Assembly: GCA_014896295.1 (NCBI GenBank)
Contig: JADBKR010000003.1
Coordinates: 1 to 64,000 of the forward strand
DNA length: 64,000 nt
Origin: Limnochordaceae bacterium
GTDB lineage: Bacteria; Bacillota; Limnochordia; Limnochordales; Geochordaceae
Direction of reading: 5' to 3'
Below, in pieces: positions 35,005-53,589 of the stretch. Made by a program: the position numbers and the translations under genes. The notes beneath the pieces were generated by a model, which did not search any database, had not been told where the DNA came from, and was given only the letters and a program-made list of their open reading frames with translations. Position 1 is the first letter of the stretch, and every line of letters starts with the position of its first letter.

Positions 35005-36534
<1,530 letters not shown>

Positions 36535-36652
36535 AGTGCGACCCCACTCCCCAACGACCGGACGACCGCTTCGTCCCGCCCTCCGCTCCAGGACGCCAGA
36601 CTCGCTCACTGTTTAGCTTTCAGGGATCCGGGCGCCGGATTCCTGAGTGGTC

Positions 36653-36729
36653 GGGCCTATAGCTCAGGCGGCTAGAGCGCACCCCTGATAAGGGTGAGGT
36701 CGGTGGTTCGAGTCCACCTGGGCCCACCA
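36653..36729 (+). tRNA. tRNA-Ile (GAT)
   Basis: 77-base cloverleaf GGGCCTATAGCTCAG ... CCTGATAAGG (anticodon GAT) ... GGTTCGAGTCC ... CCA encoded. Sits in the 16S-23S spacer. Confidence 0.97.
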
Positions 36730-36754
36730 GCTATGAGGCCGCCTCGAGGGTCGT

Positions 36755-36830
36755 GGGGATGTAGCTCAGCGGGGAGAGCGCCTGCTTTGCAAGCAGGAGG
36801 TCGGCGGTTCGAGCCCGCTCATCTCCACCA
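36755..36830 (+). tRNA. tRNA-Ala (TGC)
   Basis: 76-base cloverleaf GGGGATGTAGCTCAG ... CTGCTTTGCAAGCAG (anticodon TGC) ... GGTTCGAGCCC ... CCA encoded. Second spacer tRNA, the common Ile-Ala pair. Confidence 0.97.
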
Positions 36831-36955
36831 TTGCGAGGATGGCCAGCGTAGCGCGCCACGTGTGGCGCCAGCACCTTGAAAACTGCACAGTGCGTTTGTG
36901 ATTGCCCAACGGGGCCGCAGAGGAGCGCGCAGCGCGGCTTCTGTGGTGATTCGGC

Positions 36956-39961
<3,006 letters not shown>

Positions 39962-40040
39962 CCGAAACCCGTCGGGCCGTGGCATGCGCACTGTGCAGCT
40001 TTCAGGGCGCTGGCCGGCGCCCCCGACCAGCGTAGCCCGT

Positions 40041-40158
40041 TCCCGGTGGCCATGGCGGAGGGGTCCCACCCGTTCCCATGCCGAACACGGCCGTGAAAAC
40101 CTCCAGCGCCTAGGGTACTGTGCGGGCGACCGCACGGGAGAGCGGGTCGCCGCCGGGA
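40041..40158 (+). rRNA. rrf: 5S ribosomal RNA
   Basis: About 118 bases beginning TCCCGGTGGCCATGGCGGAG and ending CGCCGCCGGGA, the two ends pairing as helix I. Contains the conserved CCCATGCCGAACACGG. Confidence 0.93.
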
Positions 40159-40240: not shown

Positions 40241-40595
40241 TTGTGTACCCGGAGTGACCCGTGGACGAATTTCCTTGTCCTGACGTGGTCTGCAAGGGAC
40301 TGCCGTTCGCGAGGTCTGGCTACCATGGCTTTCCAGTGCCGAAGTGGAAGGGTGTGGAAGCTCGGCATCCTGTGATACGGAACGCACTGGGACGGCATCT
40401 GAGGGACAGCCGTGCACCAATGGTACCCCCTTGGGGGTACCCCAGATCTGCGGCACGACGGGGCAAAGACCCAAGGGCAGGCTGTGGATCCCGGCCGGCG
40501 CGTGCCTACCTTGGCGAGGCTACCGGTTGTGGAAAAAGGCGAAAAGGGAGCAGGACCGCGAAAGCAGGCACAAGTTTGAGATAGGAGGAGCCAGA
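40241..40595. other. Gene-free region after the rRNA operon
   Basis: No gene recognised. A perfect palindrome GGTACCCCC/GGGGGTACC lies at 40422-40441 without a T tract. Confidence 0.5.
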
Positions 40596-40742
40596 ATGGC
40601 TCCCGCTCTGGCCGCCTCACAGCGGCCCGTGACGCTACGCCGACGCCTCGCGTTCGGTCGACGCAGAGTTGGGCTGACCTGCGGGGCTGCGTGGGTGATG
40701 AGCGCGTGGCGGAGGTTCTTTCCCCGCGGCAACGGCTCGTGA
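40596..40742 (+). CDS. Possible small basic protein
   Basis: 48 residues from ATG 40596 with an excellent AGGAGG site nine bases upstream. MAPALAASQRPVTLRRRLAF and an Arg-rich remainder. No family recognised. It lies in decayed DNA beside a toxin remnant and may be residual. Confidence 0.25.
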   Translation: MAPALAASQRPVTLRRRLAFGRRRVGLTCGAAWVMSAWRRFFPRGNGS

Positions 40743-40848
40743 CCCCCTGGGGTAGATAGGCGTGGCTTGATGTATGGTCGCCCGACCGGCAAGACGGCGG
40801 CAGGGAGAGCAAAGCTTGCGACGAAGGAGGTGGCTGAAGCAGACCTTT

Positions 40849-41000
40849 ATGACACTGACTGAGGTTCCAGCGGGTTCGGCGGTCTACATCGATGCAAACA
40901 TTTCCGTCCACCATCTCGGGGGCTCTCGTCTCAGTTCCGGGAGTTCCTGGAGCGCGTCGAGAGCGCAGAGAGCGTTGGCTACACCGGCTCGCTCGAACCG
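40849..41000 (+). pseudogene. PIN-domain (VapC-type) toxin remnant
   Basis: ATG 40849 opens VPAGSAVYIDANISVHHLGG, the N-terminal PIN signature with its first metal-binding Asp (YIDAN). After the GGGGG run at about 40917-40922 the frame must shift to read SQFREFLERVESAES, typical PIN continuation, and the rest of the roughly 130-residue nuclease is missing. Upstream MYGRPTGKTAAGRAKLATKE (from 40770) may be an antitoxin tail. The toxin is inferred to be dead. Confidence 0.55.
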
Positions 41001-41081
41001 GGCGTCGGCCGACGAGAGCTTCGACCGAGTACACGGGAACCGGCGGTTCGGCCCCTCTGACCCGGGGAATGCGCCGAAGGG

Positions 41082-41969
41082 GTGGCGCACGTGCGGCTTA
41101 TCCGCCCGCCATCAGCAGCCGAGTTCCTCAGGCTGGTTGAGCCGTTCCTGCTCCAGCACGAGGCGGAGCACAACCTCATGCTGGGCATTGCGGCCAGCCT
41201 GAGCCGAGAACCTGACCGGTTCGAGCAGCCGCCCTACCTCTCCGCCGTGGAGGAGGCGGGCCAGGTCATCGCCGCGGCCGTGATGACCCCGCCGCGCAAC
41301 CTGGTGCTCTCCCGAGTCGAAGCGCCCGGAGCGCTCGACCTGTTCGCAGGCGACCTCCTGGCCGGCGGGTGGAGCGTGCCGGGCGTGCTGGGCTCGAAGG
41401 TGGTCAGCCGGCAGTTCGCAGAGCTGTGGCATCAGCGGAAAGGCGTTCCCTTCCGCTCCGGCATGGCCCAGCGGATCTATGCGTTGCAGCAGGTGAGGCC
41501 GGTGAAGGGGGTGCCCGGCCGCTTGCGACGAGTCACCGAAAATGACCGGACGCTACTCGTGCAGTGGGTGACGGCCTTTGCCGCGGAGGCGCTTGGGGAG
41601 CCCGACCCCACCAGGGCAGAGCGGTTCGTGGACGCCCACCTGCGGCCCGAGAAGCGCAGCATCTTCCTGTGGGAAGACGGCCAGCCGCCGCGTCCGGTCT
41701 CCATGGCCGCGTCCGGCGAGCCCACGCCCAACGGGGTCAGGGTCAACGCCGTCTACACCCCTCCGGAACTGCGCCGGCGCGGATACGCCAGCGCCTGTGT
41801 GGCGGCGTTGAGCCAGTGGCTGCTGGACTCAGGGTACCGGTATTGCTTTCTCTACACGGACTTGAACAACCCCACCTCCAACCACATCTACCAGGCCATC
41901 GGCTACGAGCCCGTATGCGACGTGGACGAATACAAGTTCGAGTCGCAACCCATGAGTCCCACCACCTGA
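41082..41969 (+). CDS. GNAT-family N-acetyltransferase
   Basis: 295 residues from GTG 41082 behind AAGGGG. Transfers acetyl from acetyl-CoA to an amine; the substrate is unknown. The N-terminal half is a degenerate GNAT-like lobe. The C-terminal half carries motif A VRVNAVYTPPELRRRGYASA (CoA pyrophosphate-binding RRRGYA) and motif B with YCFLYTDLNNPTSNHIYQAI, GYEPVCDVDEY. This is the FR47-like pattern common in Bacillota. It lies among remnants and looks intact. Confidence 0.88.
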   Translation: MAHVRLIRPPSAAEFLRLVEPFLLQHEAEHNLMLGIAASLSREPDRFEQPPYLSAVEEAGQVIAAAVMTPPRNLVLSRVEAPGALDLFAGDLLAGGWSVPGVLGSKVVSRQFAELWHQRKGVPFRSGMAQRIYALQQVRPVKGVPGRLRRVTENDRTLLVQWVTAFAAEALGEPDPTRAERFVDAHLRPEKRSIFLWEDGQPPRPVSMAASGEPTPNGVRVNAVYTPPELRRRGYASACVAALSQWLLDSGYRYCFLYTDLNNPTSNHIYQAIGYEPVCDVDEYKFESQPMSPTT

Positions 41970-42026
41970 GCCACTCGCTTCGGGGAGCGGTCGCATGGTC
42001 TGCCGTTGAAGAAGGACGCCAGCCGG

Positions 42027-42677
42027 TCAGGACGCGCCGGCCAGTTCCTCAAGTTGGGCGTGCAGTCCGGCCAGAGTCGGGTAGAGCCGCCGGTACAACT
42101 CGTGATATGGCCGATAGCGCTGTGTCATCTCCGGGCGCGGCAGGACCGTGCGGGACGCCCGGGATATGTGCCGTGCCGTCTCCGCAGGGTCCTTCCAGAC
42201 GCCGGCTCCCACCCCGCCGAGCAGCGCCGCCCCGAGGGTGGTGGCCTCCTCGATGGCGCACACCTCCAGCGCGAGGTTGCCGATATCGGCCTTGAGCTGC
42301 AGCCACAGCTCGTTACGGGCGCCGCCGCCGATGGCCGCCGCCCGGCGGGCCTGAGCGCCGGTCAGGGACGTCAGGCGGTGGACGATGTAGGCAAACTCGT
42401 GCGCCAGCCCCTCGACGGCCGCCCGCACCAGATCGCTTCGGCGATGGTACGGCCGGAGGCCCACCCACGCCCCTCTCGAGAGCCCGTCGGGCGGGGCGAC
42501 GGCGCCTCTCAGGTGCGGCAAAAACAACAGCCCGTGGCTTCCGGGCAGCGGCTGTTCGGCGAGGGCCATCAGTCGGCGGTAAACGCCGTCGGCGCCCTCT
42601 CCAGCGTTCTGCGCGGCCTTTTCTTCCATTTCGCCGAGCGCCGCCCGCAGCTGCGGAGTACGACCCAAACCGACCAC
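42027..42677 (-). pseudogene. FGGY sugar kinase, C-terminal fragment cut by an IS element
   Basis: About 216 residues of the C-terminal ATPase domain of a xylulokinase-like kinase: HGLLFLPHLRGAVAPPDGLS, RAAVEGLAHEFAYIV, IGGGARNELWLQLKADIGN, EEATTLGAALLGGVGAG. The N-terminal 280 residues with the substrate site are missing. The gene's upstream end coincides with a block of 23-bp repeats and an IS21-type transposase. No matching N-terminal piece is found beyond the IS copies, so the insertion was accompanied by a deletion. Confidence 0.85.
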
Positions 42678-42805
42678 CGAATACGAGCCATGTCGACCAC
42701 CCCGTACGATTCATGCCGACCACCGGGTACGATTCATGCCGACCAGCGATTCCGGAGCAAGCCGACCACCGGTTACGATCCATGCCGACCACTTTGACCG
42801 ATACC
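42665..42805. repeat. 23-bp tandem repeats at the IS21-type end
   Basis: Unit GCCGACCACCGGGTACGATTCAT, repeated about six times with the consensus GCCGACCAC plus TACGATTCAT degrading outward. IS21-family ends typically carry several transposase-binding repeats. This marks the outer end of the left transposase copy. Confidence 0.65.
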
Positions 42806-42944
42806 TCGGAATCGGTGGTCGCCATGCCCCGTAATCCCCGTCAGGACGGGCGGCGCTGGATACCAAACGGCCATCAGGGATAGGGCCGCTCGAGGCCGAA
42901 GCGTGGGGGCCAGCACCCACACAGGAGGAGGGCTGGCCACCCTG

Positions 42945-43604
42945 ATGGCTCAGCGGAGGGTATCCGTGCGCAAGATCCGGGAGATTCTGCGACTCCACCA
43001 CGTGGCAAAGCTGGGCGTGCGGGCGATCGGGCGAAGCTGCGGCCTTTCCCACAGCACCGTGGCCGAGGTGCTGCGCAGGGCCGAGGCGGCCGGGCTTTCG
43101 TGGCCGCTTCCCGAGGAGATGGACGACGCCGCCCTGGAAGCCGCCCTCTACGGCCCGACCGCCCCGGCGCAAACCCGGCATCCCATGCCGGACATGGACC
43201 ATCTTTACCGAGAGCTGCGCTCCCGTAAAGGGGTGACGCTGCGGCTTCTGTGGTTGGAGTACAAGCAGGCGCACCCCGACGGGTACCAGTACAGCCGCTT
43301 CTGCGAGCTCTACCGCCGGTGGGCCAAGACCCTGGACGTCTCGTTGCGCCAGGTCTACCGCGGCGGGGAGAAGATGTTCGTCGACTTTGCGGGGGAGACG
43401 ATCCCCGTGGTCGACCCGCAGACGGGGCAGGTCCGGCCGGCCTATCTGTTCGTCGCGGTGCTGGCGGCCAGCAACTACACCTTTGCCAAACCCACCTGGG
43501 CGCAGGACCTGCCCAGCTGGATCGGGGGCCACGTGGACGCCTTCGAGTTCTTCGGCGGGGTGCCGGAGATGGTGGTCTGCGATTATGTTCCGGGCAACAT
43601 AATC
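42945..43604 (+). pseudogene. istA: IS21-family transposase IstA (N-terminal half)
   Basis: Start ATG 42945 (or GTG 42903). HTH region RKIREILRLHHVAKLGVRAI, GRSCGLSHSTVAEVLRRAE, then the catalytic core begins: DFAGETIPVVDP (first Asp), YLFVAVLAASNYTFAKPTW and FEFFGGVPEMVVCD (second Asp region). At this point the frame meets a palindrome and the DNA becomes the reverse strand of another istA. The C-terminal catalytic Glu and istB are missing, so it cannot transpose by itself. Confidence 0.85.
43581..43604. other. Palindromic junction between two inverted istA halves
   Basis: GATTATGTT (43581-43589), loop CCGGGC, AACATAATC (43596-43604). Both transposase genes run into it from opposite sides, and both are cut at the same conserved Asp codon. 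Confidence 0.75.
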
Positions 43605-44132
43605 GTAGAGGCAGCGGCGGGGCACACCGCCGAAGTGAGCGAAGGCGTGGAGGTGGCACCGGATAAACAAGGGGAGCGTGGCTCTGGCGATGAACTCCAG
43701 GAACATCGCCCGAGACCAGCTCAACACCATGCAGAAGGCCCACAGGCGCACCACCTTGAAGTCGACCTGGGCCTGCTCGCCGGGCTCGGTCTCGAAGCGC
43801 ACGGTGGCCTTCGGCACCCGAGGGGGCCGCAAGGGCTTCAGAAACTCCTTCAGGATGCTCCGGCCGCCGGTGTAGCCCCGTTCTCGCAGCTCCCGCAGCA
43901 GCACCTCGCTGTTGGTCACGCCGTCCACACGGACCCGTTCGAGGAGGTAGTCCCGGAACGGATCCAGCTTCGACGGCCGCCGGGCACGGGGCTGCGGCTC
44001 GGGTATCCCGGGGTGTCGCAGGTAGCGGCGCACCGTGTTGCGGGACATCCCGAGGCGATCAGCGATGGCCCGGATCGACTTACCTTCGTGCCAGATACGC
44101 CAGATGGTTTTCACCTCTCCACCCCCTAGCAA
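43602..44132 (-). pseudogene. istA: Second IS21-family IstA (N-terminal half, inverted)
   Basis: From TTG 44132 (or GTG 44114). Reads VKTIWRIWHEGKSIRAIADR, LGMSRNTVRRYLRHPG (HTH), ATVRFETEPGEQAQVDF (first Asp region) and AFAHFGGVPRRCLYD, where it hits the palindrome at 43604. It is a different IS21 relative from the copy at 42945, as the HTH and core sequences differ clearly. No istB follows. Confidence 0.85.
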
Positions 44133-44230
44133 GTTCCCTGCACCTCCGAATCCGTGGGGGATCTCGGAGGTCAGGGTTCGGCGGGGGGGTGGACCAATTC
44201 TTGGCCGGCTGACGTGGGTCAGTTTATCTC
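44133..44230. mobile_element. Outer end of the second IS21-type element
   Basis: The reverse strand reads TGACCCACGTCAGCCGGCCA then AGAATTGGTCCACCCCC, resembling IS21-family termini. Native DNA resumes near 44230. Confidence 0.5.
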
Positions 44231-44271
44231 CGGCTGCAACAACCCTGGGGATCGCAAGGTGAGCAAGAGGC

Positions 44272-44301
44272 TTGACTTACCGGGGTATGCAGTAGTATAC
44301 A
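44272..44301 (+). promoter_or_regulatory. Sigma-A-type promoter
   Basis: -35 TTGACT (44272-44277), 18-base spacer, -10 TATACA (44296-44301). It would give a leader of roughly 420 bases to the cytochrome gene. No gene or known RNA is seen in 44302-44728. Confidence 0.55.
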
Positions 44302-44728
44302 CATGGTGGCAATGGTGCTAACCAATGTAACCGCCTTACACCCTGTAGCCCGGCGGTGCTGCAAGACTCCACAAAGCCATCTGAGGTGGTCTGAAACGGG
44401 TTACAAGCGTCTAGAAGCGCGGCGTGGCCTGCCGGAGGTTGTGGCACGAAGGCGGAGAACGCACGCGGAACTGCCGTTAGGCCACCACGTGCAGGGCTCC
44501 ATCGTGTGCATGCCGCTGGTTCCGGCGTAGCGTACGCGGGACCAGTGAAAAGCGTTGCGCTGTTCGCAGGGATGGCCAGCGGTCCACGGCAAGCCACCCT
44601 ATCGTGAAAAGGCCATCGAGCAGAAAGGGAGAGGGGCGCGTACGTGCTTCGGACATGGGCCAGCGGTCATTCGTCCGGGACAGCAATCAACACCTACGTA
44701 CATATCAGTCCTTAGGATTGAGGGGAAC

Positions 44729-45505
44729 ATGGGGAGAAGAACGCTTTTGGTCTGGGTGGGCTTGGTCGGCTGCGTGCTTCTACTCCTTCAGGTATCGGCC
44801 TTGCAGGCGGCGGGTGATGTCGAAGTCCAGGCCATCCAGGACGCCACATATGGTCGGATACTGGCCGATGCCCAGGGGCGCACCCTCTACCTATTCACGA
44901 AAGACAGCAAGAACTCCAGCACCTGCTACAACCAGTGCGCTGAGATCTGGCCCCCACTGCTGGTCAAGGACAAGGCCATGGCAGGCAAGGGGGTAGCAGC
45001 CAACCTCCTCGGCACCACCCAGCGCAAGGACGGAACCCTCCAGGTCACCTACAACGGCTGGCCGCTGTACTACTACGCCAAAGATTCGAGACCGGGCGAT
45101 GTCAACGGTCAAGGCGTCGGCGGGGTATGGTTCCTGGTATCGCCTGACGGGTTCGCGGTGAAGCCGCGCCAAGAACAGCAATCCACTTCTGAGGCGCCGA
45201 AGAGCGTCGATGCGGTCCTCTTGGCTCAACTGGTACAGAAGGGGGGATCTATCTTCGCCGAAAGCTGTGCCGTGTGCCATGGACGCGGAGGGGAGGGAGC
45301 CGCTGGGCCTGCCCTGGCCGGAAACAAGAAACTGGCCGACGGGAACTTTGTAGCCAGGCAAATCCTGAACGGATCTCGTTTCATGCCTCCGTTTGATAGT
45401 ACACTCTCCGACGAGGAGGTGGCGGCGGTAGCAACGTTCATCCGAAACTCGTGGGGCAACAACTACGGCGTGGTTCTGGAAGAGGACGTGAAGACGCATC
45501 GTTAG
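44729..45505 (+). CDS. Exported fusion: secreted-repeat (SCO0930/COG4315-like) domain plus cytochrome c
   Basis: 258 residues from ATG 44729. Signal peptide or anchor MGRRTLLVWVGLVGCVLLLL. Residues about 35-150 show the secreted-repeat lipoprotein fold: GRILADAQGRTLYLFTKDSK, STCYNQCAEIWPPLL, TYNGWPLYYYAKDSRPGDVN. After a linker, a class I cytochrome c follows with heme site CAVCHGRGGEG (about residue 180) and axial Met in SRFMPPFDSTLSDEEV. It should carry electrons outside the membrane. The combination in one chain is unusual. Two exported Ig-like proteins are encoded directly downstream, 78 bases away. Confidence 0.85.
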   Translation: MGRRTLLVWVGLVGCVLLLLQVSALQAAGDVEVQAIQDATYGRILADAQGRTLYLFTKDSKNSSTCYNQCAEIWPPLLVKDKAMAGKGVAANLLGTTQRKDGTLQVTYNGWPLYYYAKDSRPGDVNGQGVGGVWFLVSPDGFAVKPRQEQQSTSEAPKSVDAVLLAQLVQKGGSIFAESCAVCHGRGGEGAAGPALAGNKKLADGNFVARQILNGSRFMPPFDSTLSDEEVAAVATFIRNSWGNNYGVVLEEDVKTHR

Positions 45506-45583
45506 TAAGGTTAGGTCGACCTACACGCTAAGCGGTTCATTGAAACCGTTTTATATCCAGGACAAGGGAAAGGAGTCGAGCTT

Positions 45584-46093
45584 ATGCATCGCGGACGGAT
45601 GGTCGCTTTTGTGGGAGCGTTTCTGGTCACGTTGATGCTGGCGGAGGGCACTCTGGCTGCGCAGGGCTACTTCATCCAAGCCGATATGGTACGGAGTGAG
45701 GCTGGCACTCCCAGGGGGCCCGTCTGCGTGCCAGACGGGGCGTTCTTCCCTGGCGAGGCGGTGGTCTTCCGAGTCAAGGTGTTCGACCTCGCCACGGGAC
45801 AGGAAGTCGAGCGACCCACCATCGAAGAGCGGGGCCTGCAGGTGCGGGTGGAACTGGGCGACGGCACGGTGCTCAGGGCGGCGTACCTCGCTCACCCGCC
45901 TGATCCCAACGCGCCGGCCCACGACGAGTACTGGGCCGCTTTCTGGCCGATCCCGAAGAATTATCCCGGTGGCACGCTCACGTGGAAAGTGGTTGCCCAG
46001 GATCGAGAAGGACGAGTGGGCGAGTTCACGCCGATCGGGCAGGAAGTTGGTCTTGGCATGTTGACCATCCTGCCGAGCACGGAGGGAGCGTGA
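45584..46093 (+). CDS. Exported beta-sandwich protein
   Basis: 169 residues from ATG 45584 with GGAAAGGAG upstream. Signal peptide MHRGRMVAFVGAFLVTLMLA cleaved near LAA. The mature part is a single beta-rich Ig-like domain (FFPGEAVVFRVKVFDLATGQ, VRVELGDGTVLRAAYLAHPP, GTLTWKVVAQDREGRVGEFT). No catalytic motif. The end overlaps the next gene as GTGA, so the two are co-translated. A role as partner of the exported cytochrome is inferred from operon order only. Confidence 0.7.
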   Translation: MHRGRMVAFVGAFLVTLMLAEGTLAAQGYFIQADMVRSEAGTPRGPVCVPDGAFFPGEAVVFRVKVFDLATGQEVERPTIEERGLQVRVELGDGTVLRAAYLAHPPDPNAPAHDEYWAAFWPIPKNYPGGTLTWKVVAQDREGRVGEFTPIGQEVGLGMLTILPSTEGA

Positions 46094-47517
46094 ACGTGCA
46101 AGTGAGGCATGCCTTTGGGTGTTTTCTGGGTTCGCTATTGATTCTGCTGGCCGGGGCCGCCGGCCCGGCCGTTGCCGAGGCAAGCTTGCACCTCGTGCCG
46201 TCCCGGGGCCCCATCGGCACCACGGTTCACGCGACCATCGAGGATCTCGCGCCCGAAGTGGAGTTTGAGCTGGTCTGGCATACGGCTGCGCCCGAGTGGG
46301 TCGTCGAGCAGGGAAGCTTCAAGGGCTTCCGCGCCTCTCCGAAGCGGATCTCGTTGGGTGTGGGCCGAGCCGACGCCGGGGGCCGCGCCGAGCTGTCGTT
46401 CACGGTGCCGGAAGACTTTGGGTTCGTCCACAACCTGACCGTGGAGGCGGCGGGGCAGGTGCTTGCTAGGCAGGGTTTCCTGGTCCAACCGAGTCTCGTC
46501 ATCACTCCGACGTCAGGTCCCCCGGGCATGCCCATCGAGGTGACGGTGTACGGCTTGGGATACCAAAACTACCAGTTCACCTACGTGCTTCTGTACGACA
46601 ACCGCACTACCGGCATCGTCACTGCCATCTCAACGAAAGGAACGGCGCGGGTGGTCATCCCGGCGGTGGGCGAGCCGGGTGTTCACAGCATCCGCCTGGT
46701 TGCGGGCGTACTCACAGGGGCGTACTTGAATGTTGAACAGTCGCCGGTCTACTTCCCCGGCGCCTCGGAGCCGCTGTACGCCACCTTCACGGTGACAGAA
46801 GGCCCGTTCGTTACCCCGCCCTCGGTAGACAGCCAGGTGCTTCCTCGGGAGAAGCGCTCGGCCGCGGCACCGGCCGGAGAAGGGCCGCAAATATGGACCG
46901 ACTACGCGACGGGAACTGTTGGGCAACCCTTCGTGATAGAAGGGACGGGTTTTCCTCCAGGGAGCCAGGTCCAGCTCTGGTGGCGGACCGTCGTGGGTAA
47001 CCGGATCAGCGGACAAGGTTGGCAAGAACGGGAGTCGCTCCTTGCTGAAGTGACAGCCGACGGCCAGGGCCGGATTCGGTGGCAGGGAGAGACGCCGGAC
47101 GATCTGGGCGGTCCTCACCGCATCACAGCCCGTGCAGGCGAGGTCGTCGCCTGGACGGAGTATACCATCAAGCCGAGTCTCGTGGCGTTCGAGCCGACCG
47201 AGGTGGCTCCGGGACAGCAATTGCGGCTACAGCTAAAGGGGATCGGCTGGACGGAGACGGAGAACATCGTCACAGTAACCCACGACAATGCGTACATCGG
47301 TTACGCCTGCGGTTTCAACAGCCAGGGCGATGTGACGATCTTGATGCCGGCCGATACCCGACCGGGGTGGCACGTCATCGAGCTTTACCCGGCGATTTAC
47401 AAGGGCGACTTCGGACCGATCAACGCTGACATCTTCCGCCTTCCGATGCTCAACGTGGTCGACCACCCTGGTGAACGGCTGCCTTCGTTCCGGGTCGCCT
47501 ACTACGTCAGGCCGTAA
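46090..47517 (+). CDS. Exported multi-domain IPT/TIG-like protein
   Basis: 475 residues from GTG 46090; GTG 46096 has better spacing from GGAGGGAG. Signal peptide ending PAVAEA. Four repeated beta-sandwich domains begin at LVPSRGPIGTTVHATIEDL, ITPTSGPPGMPIEVTVYGLG, TGTVGQPFVIEGTGFPPGSQ and EPTEVAPGQQLRLQLKGIGW. Each carries the turn Pro-Gly-x-x-hydrophobic typical of IPT/TIG folds. No anchor is visible, so it is probably secreted or held by partners. Last gene of the cytochrome operon. Confidence 0.75.
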   Translation: MNVQVRHAFGCFLGSLLILLAGAAGPAVAEASLHLVPSRGPIGTTVHATIEDLAPEVEFELVWHTAAPEWVVEQGSFKGFRASPKRISLGVGRADAGGRAELSFTVPEDFGFVHNLTVEAAGQVLARQGFLVQPSLVITPTSGPPGMPIEVTVYGLGYQNYQFTYVLLYDNRTTGIVTAISTKGTARVVIPAVGEPGVHSIRLVAGVLTGAYLNVEQSPVYFPGASEPLYATFTVTEGPFVTPPSVDSQVLPREKRSAAAPAGEGPQIWTDYATGTVGQPFVIEGTGFPPGSQVQLWWRTVVGNRISGQGWQERESLLAEVTADGQGRIRWQGETPDDLGGPHRITARAGEVVAWTEYTIKPSLVAFEPTEVAPGQQLRLQLKGIGWTETENIVTVTHDNAYIGYACGFNSQGDVTILMPADTRPGWHVIELYPAIYKGDFGPINADIFRLPMLNVVDHPGERLPSFRVAYYVRP

Positions 47518-48047
47518 TGCTCGGATAAGGGGGCAGAACCTGCGCCAGTAGCTCAGACGCCTCAATCAAAGGCCTGACGCAGCCGGGCGCACGAGAGTAG
47601 CGGGCAAAGGAGTTCGTTCCTTTTTTCGCTGGAAACCGCAGCGGTCCGCCTCAAGCAAAAGGAAAGCACCCCCGGGCGGCGAAGACCGGGGGTGTCCGAG
47701 CGGCTGCGGGCGGAGTTCTTGCTGGGGGAGCCCCTGCCAGGGCCCTCCTGATTTGACACCAGTGGATGCGAGGGCCGGCGGGTGGGGAAAGGCGACCAGC
47801 CAAGCCGAGCCCTTTCCAACCACCCGGCTCCCCCGGACAGGGGCAGGATGCCCGGCTTTTTTCGCCCCTCCTGGGACCTCCAAACGGAGGGCTGGCAGTA
47901 TCTGACTGGTACACACTGGCGAGCGTTCTGACGGGAGGCAGCCGCCGCGGCAACTCCCAGCCACGCGCCGCCGCGCTGGCGGCCTTGCTGGCTCCCGTGC
48001 GGGTACCCGCGCATAGGAAAGGACGCGCCGATCCGCCCGTGGCCGGG
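47518..48047. other. Gene-free structured region
   Basis: No protein is supported. GC-rich inverted repeats are dense. A hairpin at 47667-47694 fits a minus-strand terminator, and a plus-strand TTTTTT at about 47861-47866 follows a GGGCAGGATGCCC hairpin, as in an orphan riboswitch-type leader. I could not match a known riboswitch class. Confidence 0.45.
47667..47694 (-). terminator. Minus-strand terminator
   Basis: Nine-bp stem CACCCCCGG/CCGGGGGTG with loop, followed on the minus strand by CTTTCCTTTTG. Confidence 0.6.
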
Positions 48048-48224
48048 CTAATCGAGCGCCTTAGCGCGCGCGACTACGTGTGCCAGCGTGCCCTGCACGG
48101 ATCCGTACCGAGCTCCCAGGTCGCGCGTATAGGCCTCCTGGCTCAGGTGGCGGACGTGCTCCATGAGCCGGCCTTTGGCCCAGAACTCGTAATCCCACAA
48201 AACCTGCAGACGTTCCAGGAGCAT
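48048..48224 (-). pseudogene. DinB-family protein, truncated
   Basis: 58 residues from ATG 48224 with GGTAGGGG upstream. MLLERLQVLWDYEFWAKGRL, RYGSVQGTLAHVVARAKALD is the N-terminal third of a DinB-like four-helix protein, including its first metal-binding His (TLAHV). The frame ends at TAG 48048-48050 in unrelated sequence. The other helices and two His ligands are absent, so it is inferred inactive. Confidence 0.6.
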
Positions 48225-48364
48225 GACCGACCCCTACCTTCGATGACCGCGTTACACGCCGCCTTGCGCCAGCGGAAGTTCCGGATCGGCACCTTGTCTC
48301 CCGCTGGGAGGAGCAACGGTTCGTTTCAGGTCGGAGGTTCGACGGGCGACGCCCGAGCCGCCGC

Positions 48365-48784
48365 TCAGGCAGGCGGGACGATGAAAAGCACAAACGTGCA
48401 TGGGGCGCCCCCCGGGTTGGACAGGCTGTGGGCCACGTCGGCAGCGAGCGCCGCCACGTCGCCGGCGGCGAGCGAGACCTGCTCCTCCCCTGCCTGCACA
48501 ACGAGCTGGCCTGCCATTACCACGAAGAGTTCGACGGTGCCTGGTCGATGGGCGTGGAAGGTGCCTGTCGTTTGGCGGCCAGGTAGGTAGTAATGGATGA
48601 CCTCGACGCCGTGGATGAGCGGGAGCAGCGTCTCCCGGACGGCTCCGGTCTCGGGATCGAGGAGGCGCTTGCCGGCACCTGGGCGGCTGACCTGGACGCG
48701 GCGCAAGGAAGCCTCGCCCAACAGTTCGGGCAGGCTCTTGCCGACCCCCTCAGCGAGGTGGGGTTGGCCCGATTCCGTGGACAC
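48365..48784 (-). pseudogene. Cupin-domain regulator lacking its HTH
   Basis: Up to 139 residues. The C-terminal cupin barrel is intact: GVEVIHYYLPGRQTTGTFHA, HRPGTVELFVVMAGQLVVQA, LAAGDVAALAADVAHSLSNP. The preceding stretch (AEGVGKSLPELLGEASLRRV) is the linker usual in XRE-cupin repressors, but the DNA-binding domain is missing where transposase DNA begins at about 48785. A free-standing cupin cannot be excluded, though the linker argues for truncation. Confidence 0.65.
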
Positions 48785-49222
48785 CTACACACTTGGAGCG
48801 GAGCCCCAACGAGGAGGGTGTCCCGTGCCACCAACCCGACCCCCCCTACCCGCCGGAGTTTCGCGCCGAGGCCGTGCGGCTGGTGCGCACCTCCGACAAG
48901 ACGCAGAAGGCGATCGCCGCAGGCCTCGGGGTCTCCACGGAATCTCTGTGCAAATGGGTACGCTAGGCTGAGATGGACGCCGGCGAGCGCGAGGGCCTGA
49001 CGACGACCGAGCGGGAAGAGCTGCAGCGGCTGCGCCGGGAGAACCGCATCCTTCGGGAAGAGCGAGCGATCGTGAAAAAAGCCGCGGCCTTCTTGGCTCG
49101 GGAGACCGACCGGACCCGGTAGCGGGGTTCCGGTTCGTGGAGCCGCAGAAGGCCGAGCATTCCGTCGCGATGCTGGGCCGGGTGCTGGACGTCTCCTCCA
49201 GCGAGTACTACGCATGGCGCCA
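48785..49222 (+). mobile_element. IS3-family remnant (orfA with stop, start of orfB)
   Basis: orfA reads YPPEFRAEAVRLVRTSDKTQ, KAIAAGLGVSTESLCKWVR, then an in-frame TAG (48964-48966), then [40 protein letters not shown] to TAG 49120-49122. A CCCCCC run at about 48841-48846 also breaks the frame. orfB begins RFVEPQKAEHSVAMLGRVLD, VSSSEYYAWRH and stops being IS3-like at 49222. Confidence 0.75.
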
Positions 49223-49440
49223 CCGCTGGGTGATCGAGAACACAGACTTTCACGAGGCGAAGTCCCGCTGGCACCTGGATCACGGCTACGTGCACACGGC
49301 CACGGCCATCCAGGCCGTTCACTGGTTGCAGATGTTGGCCATCAACGTGATGCGGATGTTCTTCCAACACACCTGCGGGCGTTTGGCCGAGACGGCCAAA
49401 CCCTGGCAGAAGCGGCCCGGGCGATGGAAGGGGAGCTGCG
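49223..49440 (+). mobile_element. C-terminal scrap of an IS4-type DDE transposase
   Basis: RWVIENTDFHEAKSRWHLDH, GYVHTATAIQAVHWLQMLAI, NVMRMFF matches the end of IS4-like transposases, with the catalytic Glu in IEN. It is joined in frame to the IS3 orfB start, forming a chimera. Confidence 0.6.
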
Positions 49441-50467
49441 GCACGGCTCCCGGCTGCCCCCGCCGATCTGCGGCTGATCTGGGACACCGGATAGCGCGCC
49501 CAAAGGGCCGTGGGCACGTAGCCGGGAGACGGAAAGCCACCGCGCACCCGAAAGCCGGTTTCGAGGCCGGCAAGGCCTTTGTCGTCCTGTGTGCACCCGA
49601 ACAAGCGTCCACAGCACAACCTCGCTGGCGAACCATGATCCAAATTCTGGCAGCGCGATGTCTGGTCGACCCCTGCAGTCCTTGCTCTTGCTCATCGATG
49701 AGCGCGGCCAGGGTCCCCAGCGCGTCGAGGAGGCCTGGGCCAAAGTGGGCGACGCAGTCGCCCGGCGTGACGTAGGTCGGCACAGCGCCCCAGCCTCGCT
49801 CGGCCAGCATCGCGGCGCCCCGACCGCCGATTGCGGCTTCGGCCTTGGGTTGGTGGACGATGAGGTCCGGTATCAGGTTCGGGACTTCTCGCAGGTCGGG
49901 GGCGAAGTACGCCCGCGGTTCGGGGCTGTAGACGTTCACCGTGCGCATCCACCGCAGGGCGGCCGCCAGATAGCTGGCGCGGCCGATGGTGACGGGGGCG
50001 CCGAGGTCGAACTCCACGTAGACGCGCAAGCCCCGGCCCACGCCCCGCAGGCGCACAAGCCGCTGGGAAAGGCCGTCGACCAGGGGTGTCGCATCCAGCC
50101 CCAGCAGGTCGCCGATCAGCACGGCGTTTTCGAGCACGCCCCACGGCGAGTGCGGCAAAGGAACCGGAAGGACGGCGTAGGCGCGCCGACGCAGTTCCAG
50201 CGTCAGGGGGTTTTGCACGCCGGTCGTGGTCAGGATGAGGTCCGGTCGCAACCGCTCGAGCAGTTCCCACCGGGCCTTGGTGTAGTTGCCCACTACGGGA
50301 AGCTGCTTCGCAGCGTCGGGCCGATAGCAGAAGCTGCTCTGCCCGATGAATCGACCGCCCCCACCGAGCAGGAAGACCGTCTTTGTGGCGTTCGGCGCCA
50401 GGCTCACGACGCGGTTTGGCGCGTCGGGCAGGTCCCGTTCACCGAGCCATTCATGGGTGATGCGCAT
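49319..50467 (-). pseudogene. Cobalamin-type periplasmic binding protein (BtuF-like), 3' end replaced
   Basis: From ATG 50467. Helical-backbone metal-receptor fold: RVVSLAPNATKTVFLLGGGG, VGNYTKARWELLERLRPDLI, LTTTGVQNPLTLELRRRAYA, ENAVLIGDLLGLDA, RASYLAAALRWM. Such proteins bind B12 or siderophore and pass it to an ABC importer. No signal peptide is visible at this start; some Gram-positive homologues are cytoplasmic or use later anchors. After about residue 270 the frame runs through transposase scrap, so the natural C-terminus is lost. The adjacent fragment at 50484 is a usual companion in B12 clusters. Confidence 0.7.
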
Positions 50468-50483
50468 GTGGGGTGAAGCTTCC

Positions 50484-50918
50484 TTACCCTCGCCCTGGCT
50501 GTTCGTCGAGCAAGTCGGCGAAGGCAAACCCGTCCCGCTCCACCACCGCAGCCCGGCGAAATGCCACGGGCCGCCTAAACACAGGTCCGTCGTAGACCAG
50601 CGTGTGAAACTCCCCGTTCTCCCCGCATGGGTCGGCCCCAGCCGGCAGGGCCTCCAGAAACGCGTCGTCGAACTCCCGCCCGGCCCACGACACATCCAGA
50701 CGGGGCAGGTCGACGCACACCCCCACCGCCCGGAAGCCGGCGCGCACGAACTCCCGAGCGACGGCCCGCGTCTCCTGCCCCCACAGCGGGAACCCTGCCT
50801 CCATCCCGGCCCGAGCCTTCTGCTGCTCTCGGTGGGCTCGCGCGTCGACGAAGAGGAGACCCTCCAACGCCATCAGCCGGAGAGGCCGCCTCTTCGCAAT
50901 GCCAGCACGCAGTACCAT
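50484..50918 (-). pseudogene. Diphthine-ammonia-ligase-like ATP pyrophosphatase, C-terminal fragment
   Basis: The last 100 residues match the MJ0570/Dph6-type domain: GFPLWGQETRAVAREFVRAG, FRAVGVCVDLPRLDVSWAGR, PAGADPCGENGEFHTLVYDG. The N-terminal PP-loop nucleotide-binding half is absent; the first 40 residues (MVLRAGIAKRRPL) look unrelated. Bacterial homologues often accompany B12 uptake genes. It ends 17 bases before the BtuF-like gene, so the two were one operon. Confidence 0.7.
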
Positions 50919-51099
50919 GCGAGCTGTCGCAGGTGGTATGGCCGCCGTACGAGAGGCTACCGCGTACCATGGCTCTGGATGACCCGAATGAGAGACTTGG
51001 AGCTATGGCCGGGCGTGGCTGCGACAACTCGACGGGTCCTGGCCCGGGTGGTATGATGCGGGTGCGCCTGCATGCCGCTGCGCCAAGGGGGTTAGGCTG

Positions 51100-51288
51100 G
51101 TGGCCTCGGTGAAAGAAGAGATCCGGCGCCTTCTGGAGCAGCTGCCGGACGACTGCTCGCTGGAAGATGTGCAGTACCACCTGTATGTACGCCAGAAGAT
51201 CGAGCTCAGCCTGGCAGACGTCCGCCAGGGGCACGTCGTGGGCCAGGAGGAAGCCGAGCGACGGCTTGCCCGATGGCTCGAGAAGTAG
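51100..51288 (+). CDS. Antitoxin-like small protein
   Basis: 62 residues from GTG 51100. SVKEEIRRLLEQLPDDCSLE, DVQYHLYVRQKIELSLADVR, HVVGQEEAERRLARWLEK is the pattern of antitoxins paired with ParE/RelE toxins. It neutralises the toxin and usually represses its own promoter. It overlaps the toxin start by 16 bases. A TATGAT near 51049 may be its -10. Confidence 0.75.
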   Translation: MASVKEEIRRLLEQLPDDCSLEDVQYHLYVRQKIELSLADVRQGHVVGQEEAERRLARWLEK

Positions 51289-51470
51289 TCTGGACCTTTC
51301 GTGCCTTGCAGGATGTCGAGGCCATCGCCGACTACATCGCCAGAGACTCGCCCGGCTACGGGGCCTCGCTCGTCGCCCGCCTGGTGCACGCGGCCCGCTC
51401 CCTGGCTGAGGAGTTTCGTGGGGCCTGGCCGGAAGGGGAGGCACCGCGTAAGCGTAAGTCGACCAGGTGA
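51273..51470 (+). pseudogene. ParE/RelE-type toxin, C-terminally truncated
   Basis: 65 residues from ATG 51273. VVWTFRALQDVEAIADYIAR, YGASLVARLVHAARSLAEEF is the ParE N-terminal hairpin of helices. The expected C-terminal strands with the arginine/tyrosine active-site segment are replaced by PEGEAPRKRKSTR and a stop. A frame slip near 51420 could explain this. The toxin is inferred inactive or weakened. Confidence 0.65.
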
Positions 51471-51783
51471 CGACCCGGCTCGGTGCCTCGGGCAGCCCCA
51501 GCCCCCCGAGCCCTCCCTCACCGCCCCCGCTTTCGCTGCCGGGACCGAGCGGCACCAAAGCACGGGCCTCCCCGTGCCCCGAACCCGACGATCCGGCTCC
51601 CCGGCCGCTCTTCCTTCCAAAAACCGCCAGCCCCCGGCTGGCCGGGGGGCTGGCAGGGGTCCTCCTGGAGATCCCGACGCTCCAGCTACGCGCGAGATCC
51701 ACCCCCTGAAGTGCTCAAAGAGCGGGGGGCGCGACAGCAGTACCCCGTCGCGGCGGTGGGATCCGAGTCATTACCGTGGGCTG
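51471..51783. other. Gene-free spacer with a strong hairpin
   Basis: No gene. A 10-bp stem GCCAGCCCCC/GGGGGCTGGC at 51626-51654 is preceded by AAAAA, so it would terminate minus-strand transcription, although no minus-strand gene lies upstream of it. Confidence 0.5.
51626..51654 (-). terminator. Minus-strand terminator-like hairpin
   Basis: Ten-bp perfect stem. The minus strand continues GGTTTTTGG. Confidence 0.55.
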
Positions 51784-51813
51784 TTGGCTAACATGCGTCG
51801 TATATGTTAGCAT
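51784..51813 (+). promoter_or_regulatory. Promoter with palindromic operator for the RHH-protease pair
   Basis: -35 TTGGCT (51784-51789), 18-base spacer, -10 TAGCAT (51808-51813). The perfect inverted repeat GCTAACAT (51787-51794)/ATGTTAGC (51804-51811) overlaps both elements, as expected for autorepression by the RHH protein. Confidence 0.6.
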
Positions 51814-51850
51814 AGTGGCGTCGCCTCAGAGGACGGGAGGACCGAAGCCA

Positions 51851-52270
51851 ATGGCCACCACACAAGGAAAGGGCGCGACGTTGTACCTTCGAGGCCTGCC
51901 CCGGGAGTTGGCTCGGGCGTCCAAGGCAGCGGCCGCCGAGCGAGGTGTGACACTCACGCAGTTTGTTGCGGAGGCGCTGCAGGAGAAGCTGACGGCCGCC
52001 CGTACCGTACCCGCGGGCACCAGCGATCCGTTGGTCGCCCTGCAGACGGACATGGAATGGTTCGAAGCCAACCGGTCCCGGTTGCTGGAAGCTTACGGCG
52101 GCCTGTATGTCGCCATCGTCGACCAGCAAGTGGTGGACTCGGACGAGGAATTCGCCCGCTTGGCCCAGCGGGTGTTCGCCCGTTTCGGCCCACGTCCCGT
52201 GTTCATGCCCAGGGTGACGCCGGAGGAGCGAACTGTCCGGGTGCCATCCCCGAGGGTGGTGAGGTCGTGA
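51851..52270 (+). CDS. Ribbon-helix-helix protein with DUF5678-like domain
   Basis: 139 residues from ATG 51851, with GGACGGGAGG upstream. The N-terminal RHH/CopG-like segment is GATLYLRGLPRELARASKAA, AAERGVTLTQFVAEALQEKL. The C-terminal half, WFEANRSRLLEAYGGLYVAI, VDQQVVDSDEEFARLAQRVF, ARFGPRPVFMPRV, matches the DUF5678 pattern. Its stop overlaps the protease start as GTGA. A DNA-binding, antitoxin-like regulator is inferred from the RHH and operator. Confidence 0.75.
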   Translation: MATTQGKGATLYLRGLPRELARASKAAAAERGVTLTQFVAEALQEKLTAARTVPAGTSDPLVALQTDMEWFEANRSRLLEAYGGLYVAIVDQQVVDSDEEFARLAQRVFARFGPRPVFMPRVTPEERTVRVPSPRVVRS

Positions 52271-52644
52271 GGTCGCGTTATCCGTACGACACATCCTGTG
52301 AGCCGCCTGCCCCGGTCGTTCCGGTGCGCATCAGCGTCCCGGGAAGCCGCGACCGAGGGGTCGCGCTCGCCGCGCTGATCGATTCCGGGGCAGACGTGAC
52401 CGTGATCCCAACGGCCGTTGCCGGGGCCATGGGGCTTCCTCCGATCGGGGCGCTGAAGGTGTCGGGGGTGGCCGGCATCGTTCGCAGGGCCATCGTTTAC
52501 GCGGCCGAGGTCGAAATCAACGGCTTGCGGCGAACGGTGGAGGTGGTTGGCCTGGGTCAAGAAGCGTTACTGGGACGCAACTTCATCAACCAGTGTGTGC
52601 TCACGCTGGATGGACCCGAGCTTCAGGCGGAGGTAACAGCGTAG
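52267..52644 (+). CDS. Retropepsin-like (clan AA) aspartic protease
   Basis: 125 residues from GTG 52267. Single-domain aspartic protease with the active-site loop ALIDSGADVTVIP (catalytic Asp about residue 39) and the C-terminal signature ALLGRNFINQCVLTLDG, as in retroviral and bacterial gag-polyprotein-type proteases that act as dimers. No signal peptide, so it is cytoplasmic. Translation is coupled to the RHH-DUF5678 gene. The target is unknown; cleavage of the partner or a cellular protein is possible. Confidence 0.82.
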   Translation: MRSRYPYDTSCEPPAPVVPVRISVPGSRDRGVALAALIDSGADVTVIPTAVAGAMGLPPIGALKVSGVAGIVRRAIVYAAEVEINGLRRTVEVVGLGQEALLGRNFINQCVLTLDGPELQAEVTA

Positions 52645-52914
52645 TTTGGAATCGGCCAGGCCTGTTGGCCGGCTGTCATCAGGGCCCGGCGGATGGGCTC
52701 GTGGCTGTGGCTGCCCGGGACGGACGGATGCCGGTTGCCGACTGGCTGGACCCCTTCGTGGCGGCCACCACGTTGACCGCCATCATGTTCGTCTCGCTGC
52801 TCCTGGTCGTGCTGTGGCCGCACTTACCCGAGCCAGCCTCGAGCACGGTATGGCTGGCCAGGGGTGCAGTGTACCCTCAGTGGTGCTACGTTTTGGGGAG
52901 GTCCTGTTTAGCAC
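52645..52914. other. Decayed spacer with a membrane-helix fragment
   Basis: A frame from ATG 52728 (MPVADWLDPFVAATTLTAIM, FVSLLLVVLWPHL) gives one membrane helix, perhaps the start of a lost transporter. Nothing else is recognised. Confidence 0.35.
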
Positions 52915-53589
52915 CAGCAGCTGCCGTTCCGCTATGGCCTCACCGTGGGCGAGCTGGCTCGGTACCTCAACGAGACGAGAGGGTGGAGGGCTGCCCTCGA
53001 GGTCGTCACGATGGACGGGTGGCGGCGAAGCATGTGGTTCGACGAGACGGGGCTCCCCTGGGTCATGCCCTCGCCCAACATGCCCACGCTGGAGACGGCG
53101 ACGGTGTATCCGGGGACCGTGCTCTTCGAGGGGACCAACTTGTCCGAAGGGCGGGGCACGTGTCGGCCCTTCGAGCTCATCGGGGCGCCCTGGGTGTCGT
53201 CGGCGCGGTTGGTCGACGCACTGTACGAGAACATGGAGGCCGCCGGGGTGCGGGGCGCGTTGATCCGGGAGGCGTACTTCATCCCGACGTTCGACAAGTA
53301 CCAGGGAGAGGTCTGCCGGGGCGTCCAAGTCCACGTGGTGGACCGGAGCGCCTACGAGCCGGTGAAGGCCGGCGTGGTCTTCCTCAAGACGTTGAGGGAC
53401 CTGCACCCGAAAGCATTCCAATGGCGCCGGTTTGACGACGGCGCCTATGCGATCGACCGGCTGGCCGGGACGGACGCCCTGCGCACCATGATCGACCCCG
53501 GCGCCCCGCTCGACGAACTCGTGGCGCGCATGGCCGTCGGCGCCGACGCCTTCGCCCGCGGGCGGACGCTCTACTTCCTCTATTCGTAA
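52915..53589 (+). pseudogene. Exo-N-acetylmuramidase NamZ (DUF1343), C-terminal part
   Basis: About 224 residues to TAA 53587-53589, open from QQLPFRYGLTVGELARYLNE. NamZ removes terminal MurNAc from peptidoglycan fragments. The conserved centre is visible: MWFDETGLPWVMPSPNMPTL, VYPGTVLFEGTNLSEGRGT, FELIGAPWVSSARL, YFIPTFDKYQGEVCRGVQVH. The N-terminal catalytic half (about 170 residues) and any signal peptide are missing upstream of about 52915. A 5' deletion is inferred. Confidence 0.8.

Follow-up and report, generated by a model that had tools for sequence, protein, structure and literature searches.

Type II toxin-antitoxin (TA) modules, with antitoxins of the RHH, Phd/YefM, MerR and HicB-like kinds, consist of small co-directional overlapping genes, the antitoxin combining a swappable DNA-binding N-terminus with an extended tail; they carry an operator-like repeat, are patchy, mobile and multi-copy, and lose the effector first upon decay. 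The gene pair described here resembles them in each of these respects, but its putative toxin is a clan AA aspartic protease rather than an RNase, gyrase poison, kinase or acetyltransferase, and the core of its partner, unlike that of type II antitoxins, is DUF5678. A different likeness is to the ImmA/ImmR and COG2856-Xre pairs, in which a protease gene is coupled to a gene for a DNA-binding repressor in mobile, TA-related settings (PMC2701414); the only proteases included in the 2009 TA survey were the COG2856 zinc proteases with Xre (PMC2701414). Those pairs, however, combine a HEXXH zinc metalloprotease with an Xre-type HTH protein, whereas here an aspartic protease of the retropepsin type goes with an RHH protein, or in relatives with a Phd- or MerR-DUF5678 protein, and the partner often has no DNA-binding domain at all, which places the pair outside the ImmA/ImmR group.

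The bacterial retropepsins studied so far are RimB (PMC11957791), Rlo (PMC12239564) and APRc (PMC4140852). Pseudomonas RimB is, like the protease considered here, a non-secreted single-domain enzyme, and it acts together with a protein encoded by the same operon; it differs in trimming polyglutamate from RpsF, with the ligase RimK as its partner and nothing resembling an antitoxin (PMC11957791). The statement in the original prediction that cytoplasmic bacterial retropepsins are almost unstudied therefore needs qualification: they are few, but RimB has been characterised. The Rlo peptidases (PMC12239564) and Rickettsia APRc (PMC4140852; PDB 5c9f) share the retropepsin fold, but the Rlo enzymes are secreted and carry signal peptides, and both belong to other organisms and operons, with no DUF5678 partner reported. 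The TIGR03698/COG5550 clan AA families are part of the same superfamily, and the short-type proteases of cyanobacteria and Bacillota belong near them, but the protease examined here (P0002) falls outside the clan AA family model (score 31.5 bits, cut-off 57.4), and many Bacillota matches to that model are unpaired. In the open-access full-text literature, DUF5678 occurs only in an incidental, unrelated mention, no retropepsin was found linked to toxin-antitoxin systems or anti-phage defence, and no description of a TA module with an aspartic protease as its toxin was met with.

Judging from sequence, we give a probability of about one half to the reading that the pair is a toxin-antitoxin-like module, with a retropepsin effector and an antitoxin-repressor built on DUF5678 and a tail bearing an SPR motif.

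Organization of the locus

The window, i.e. the whole 64,000-nt stretch of DNA that was analysed, contains the following elements of the pair:

51784–51813, + strand: TTGGCT and TAGCAT, 18 nt apart, as presumed promoter hexamers, with the operator-like repeat overlapping them (read from the sequence)
51787–51811, no strand: inverted repeat GCTAACAT-N9-ATGTTAGC, candidate RHH operator (exact 8+9+8 match)
51851–52270, + strand: upstream gene for a 139-aa RHH + DUF5678 protein (P0001), candidate antitoxin/repressor; ATG start, TGA stop
51875–51991, + strand: RHH region of P0001, residues 9–47 (profile matches, predicted structure)
52082–52183, + strand: DUF5678 core of P0001, residues 78–111 (Pfam; pLDDT above 92)
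52229–52267, + strand: C-terminal tail of P0001, RTVRVPSPRVVRS, which carries the conserved SPR motif and may dock onto the protease or serve as a pseudosubstrate (tail comparison)
52267–52270, + strand: GTGA start/stop overlap of the partner and protease genes (read from the sequence)
52267–52644, + strand: downstream gene for a 125-aa single-domain retropepsin-like aspartic protease (P0002), candidate effector; GTG start, TAG stop
52381–52389, + strand: catalytic triad Asp39-Ser40-Gly41 of P0002 (D-[ST]-G kept in 18/18 aligned paired proteases)

The two genes share the GTGA, in agreement with the original prediction of a translationally coupled unit, and two small co-directional overlapping genes with the candidate antitoxin first is the layout of a type II TA module. 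The second gene indeed codes for the single-domain aspartic protease with an ALIDSGAD active site that had been proposed: P0002 passes three Pfam cut-offs (gag-asp, 37.4 bits; Asp_protease_2, 33.3; RVP, 23.1), and its AlphaFold model (pLDDT 92.4) adopts the retropepsin fold, with a TM score of up to 0.76 by target length against HIV-1 protease; Rickettsia APRc is another of the top structural hits (TM 0.75/0.71). A single D-[TS]-G motif, a length in the range of about 100–130 aa and the predicted fold identify it as a clan AA retropepsin-like protease. None of the toxin families of Pfam, NCBIfam and PADLOC matches it, and we therefore describe the module as working like a known TA family, not as being one.

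The first gene had been described as coding for an RHH/DUF5678 protein, and the second half of this description is the firmer one, since DUF5678 (PF18929) passes the Pfam cut-off in P0001 (25.0 versus 23.2 bits), while the RHH region taken alone stays below all Pfam cut-offs (PSK_trans_fac, 17.1 bits; FitA RHH, 15.5). The RHH assignment draws support from the profile of the partner family, which matches a solved CopG RHH chain (E 4e-4), and from two predicted helices at the N-terminus, with Arc, VapB26 and AtaR among its weak fold matches (all E > 0.7). For the DUF5678 core, a Foldseek search retrieved no related solved structure, and hence gave no sign of likeness to a known protease-inhibitor fold. 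At the sensitivity used, the source genome has one copy each of the DUF5678 and retropepsin domains, adjacent to each other. An orthologous pair in another genus of the same family (genome G451) is under purifying selection and has different neighbours, the partner being 78% identical (dN/dS 0.13–0.16) and the protease 71% identical (dN/dS about 0.38–0.39).

The perfect palindrome said to cover the promoter is present, with both arms exact; the promoter itself is presumed, as its hexamers are weak (8 of 12 consensus positions), and it represents our own reading, absent from the list returned by the promoter scan. Taken as a fixed pattern with up to three mismatches allowed, GCTAACAT-N9-ATGTTAGC is expected 0.02 times per 64 kb; when every equally good repeat within 150 bp is counted, the significance falls to a P of about 0.05. 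The G451 ortholog keeps the core of the repeat in the form TGCTAAC-N13-GTTAGCA. In the Eremiobacterota homolog, four copies of the half-site TAACAT are found in an 18-bp operator-like site and none elsewhere in the 8.4-kb locus, and 0 of 20,000 shuffles reached three copies in 15 bp in this upstream repeat; that the window repeat shares the half-site with so distant a homolog supports the idea that the RHH domain may bind it. The sequence GCTAAC recurs in several upstream regions, but this was noticed post hoc, and an operator common to all loci is not claimed.

Recurrence of the pair and anatomy of the partner

The original prediction had proposed looking for co-occurrence of the two genes across genomes, and the association turned out to be multi-phylum, multi-copy and nearly complete, clearly exceeding a few genomes. 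Related pairs are found in Bacillota, Chloroflexota, Eremiobacterota, Cyanobacteriota (on plasmids) and Alphaproteobacteria. Among the single-domain relatives found by protease similarity alone, which belong to Eremiobacterota, Chloroflexota and Rhodospirillaceae, a DUF5678-type gene is located immediately upstream in 9/9. The profile used to search contigs combined P0002 and its ortholog with a protease from Bacillota and an approximate row for the Chloroflexi form, the last of which only widened the search patterns, and a tblastn search with P0002 verified each match; scanning of genome contigs with P0002 alone yielded no match, nor did tblastn of plasmids with P0001 or with a Chloroflexota protease.

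In nine genomes, the DUF5678 and protease profiles were searched separately, the places were joined, and each locus was read. Since these genomes were picked for holding one pair, the counts speak of linkage and copy number and not of prevalence: 40 distinct protease genes were recovered, 36 of them with a partner directly upstream, mostly with an ATGA overlap (33 partners with DUF5678 and three SPR-tail proteins without a recognisable DUF5678), while the other four comprise three at contig edges and one solo gene from another subfamily. The pair is rare in Bacillota, yet occurs there in several genera. Most of the proteases that TIGR03698 searches retrieved in this phylum stand alone and belong to other subfamilies, so that pairing is not claimed for all bacterial retropepsins, and the partnerless life of those subfamilies counts against the TA-like reading. 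On cyanobacterial plasmids, the short form of the pair recurs with a partner beyond Pfam's reach, and comparison of profiles links the partner families to each other (E 1.7e-11 and 6e-7). A scan of viral contigs gave one retropepsin-like gene, which lies among phage tail genes (L059, 2833–3372) with no DUF5678 partner.

The partners exchange their N-terminal modules, which may be RHH (several kinds), HicB-like DUF1902 plus RHH (L050), Phd/YefM (L127, E 2.8e-5), MerR (L132, with MerR_1 over the cut-off and a possible Phd-like stretch), AF2212-like (L135, E 1e-3), or none. Exchange of the DNA-binding domain is what is seen in type II antitoxins, although several of these calls are below curated cut-offs, which weakens the comparison. 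The DUF5678 core is complete in every partner except those cut by a contig end. The motif SP[RHS] is found within the last 28 residues in 20/39 partners and in 0/128 windows from the protein body, and the C-terminus often reads [FLIV]RSPR[FLIV]. In three loci (L135–L137), the partners are AF2212-like or DUF2281-like, with no recognisable DUF5678, and have in common only an SPRL..EQA.DF.KE tail, in full SPRL(A/T)H(P/R)EQA.DF.KE, beside proteases of the same family; they possibly constitute a second antitoxin class. Because the SPR tail is common to otherwise different partners, we suggest that it contacts the protease.

The two genes appear to have diversified together: distances between DUF5678 cores and between proteases are correlated over 18 pairs (Mantel r 0.90, p 2e-4) and over the nine long-type pairs alone (r 0.84, p 2e-4), a correlation that is partly due to shared descent. 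Their decay is asymmetric. About ten broken or deleted proteases adjoin intact, open partners. Among them, the protease gene is deleted in L069 and L071, with breakpoints that differ between the two, cut short in L070, interrupted by in-frame stops in L053/L106, L127 and L132, and frameshifted or internally deleted in L140, L141, L142 and probably L056. Orphan partners with no protease exist as well, and no intact long-type protease was seen next to a broken partner among the loci read. Some lesions may be metagenome assembly errors, a point against the TA-like reading, but such errors should strike both genes alike.

A DNA-binding domain is missing from the partners in L055, L056 and L111 and from the Bacillota short-type and cyanobacterial partners, indicating that repression is accessory rather than central to the pair. 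This bears on the possibility of a regulated-proteolysis switch like ImmA/ImmR, in which genes would be turned on when the protease cleaves the partner repressor, possibly within its linker or SPR tail; the protease would then be a signal-responsive regulator and not a toxin. Adjacent repressor and protease genes, the operator-like repeat, and the long conserved tail, conceivably a substrate, all fit such a switch, for which the metalloprotease-Xre pairs provide an established precedent (PMC2701414), but cleavage of a repressor cannot be the shared function when so many partners have no DNA-binding domain, and the repeated loss of the protease with retention of the partner would be less expected; we regard the switch as unlikely.

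Strain variability and genomic surroundings

Within the class, the pair is present in 2/73 genomes. A complete genome of the same species has other sequence in place of window positions 40461–52919, and shares with this interval only a ParDE-like stretch (90%) and a 174-bp repeat match; retention of a copy elsewhere in that genome was rejected. Its absence from a same-species genome identifies the pair as strain-variable cargo. Identity to the same-species genome (99.5%) begins exactly at 52919, which marks a rearrangement junction, and a NamZ muramidase gene at 52919–53589 is 5′-truncated, with an intact 380-aa copy in the same-species genome. The strain-variable region directly follows a complete rRNA operon and two tRNAs (35006–40158) and may thus be a hot spot for insertions. 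A dispersed repeat with a strong GC hairpin is located at 51511–51746, with copies 87–88% identical in related genomes, and further repeats were matched at about 48760–49230. What had been taken for a classical ParDE-like pair next to the locus (51100–51467) is a ParD-like gene followed by a truncated remnant of ParE, with 65 aa covering only profile positions 1–42 of 89; in the 90% identical copy of the same-species genome, the reading frame likewise ends early.

Overall, the distribution is patchy and mobile, as in type II TA modules, with pairs on plasmids, next to an integrase gene, and in tandem and multiple copies. Several pairs adjoin ParDE/RelE-type genes or lie near PIN and BrnT/CopG-antitoxin genes, although TA neighbours are common in such genomes anyway. 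A short-type pair is inserted between pglZ and pglX in the BREX locus of a Nostoc plasmid (L060, 2226–2863), and two tandem pairs follow a type I restriction HsdR gene. These positions would suit an anti-phage abortive module, a special case of the TA-like explanation in which infection triggers the protease to cut phage or host proteins; PADLOC aspartyl proteases from Sulfolobales type III CRISPR operons also match the cyanobacterial and Bacillota forms, but these matches are weak and most pairs reside outside defence islands, making this version improbable as well.

Some Bacillota short-type pairs sit in ordinary loci, e.g. among exopolysaccharide genes, which, together with their missing DNA-binding domain, argues against the TA-like reading. 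DUF5678 also occurs away from proteases. In one genome (G286), five DUF5678 genes (L003, L007–L010) lie directly downstream of genes for UbiD-like decarboxylases, a second, unrelated recurrent setting of the domain; elsewhere it is fused to response-regulator plus TOPRIM-like proteins (L078, L088, L094), adjoins or is fused with CCA-polymerase-like proteins (L089, L092), or is fused to a DUF362-like protein (L086), all of these neighbouring enzymes and domains being named by eye. Its presence without a protease, beside or fused to other proteins, indicates that DUF5678 may serve as a binding domain of general use that this pair has borrowed, which again speaks against the TA-like reading. Least likely, we believe, is a housekeeping processing unit free of toxicity, whose DUF5678 protein would be an adaptor, chaperone or activator bringing substrates to the protease, by analogy with RimK and RimB, the latter being bifunctional with RimK: it agrees with the unrelated enzymes that accompany DUF5678 and with the polysaccharide loci, but a patchy, strain-variable, multi-copy spread and antitoxin-type N-terminal swapping are unusual for housekeeping genes, and the protease can be lost where its partner is retained.

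Proposed mode of action and implications

We favour the TA-like reading because of the linkage of the two overlapping genes, domain swapping, the conserved tail, co-diversification, asymmetric decay, mobility, and the operator half-site that recurs across phyla. The antitoxin-like architecture, the domain swapping and the asymmetric decay of the protease bear out the toxin-antitoxin part of the original prediction, while the autorepression on which it also relied would, in view of the short-type pairs, not be central. As a TA-like module, the pair would consist of a three-part antitoxin-repressor, whose DUF5678 core links a DNA-binding N-terminus that can be exchanged (an RHH in this pair) to the extended SPR tail, and of a retropepsin-like aspartic protease effector, presumably dimeric as is usual for the family. 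In the resting state, the core and the tail would hold the protease, with the tail probably in or near the substrate cleft, and the partner-protease complex would sit on the GCTAACAT/ATGTTAGC operator, keeping the operon repressed. Loss of the antitoxin through degradation, element loss or infection would then free a toxic protease to cut host or invader proteins.

More tentatively, with odds clearly lower than those of the TA-like reading itself, such pairs might represent a large undescribed TA class, in which a cytoplasmic HIV-protease-like toxin is blocked by an SPR tail acting as a pseudosubstrate in its cleft, DUF5678 is the constant protease-binding core, and the swappable N-terminus represses the operon. 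It may further be hypothesized that the partner is at once inhibitor, repressor and substrate of the protease.

If the protease is a toxin, aspartic proteolysis would be a new effector chemistry in toxin-antitoxin biology, DUF5678 would gain a function, and an explanation would be at hand for a set of small retropepsin genes whose present annotation goes no further than "clan AA aspartic protease". The pair lends itself to direct tests of how bacteria control a retropepsin within the cell, and might also supply a naturally occurring peptide that inhibits the retropepsin fold.
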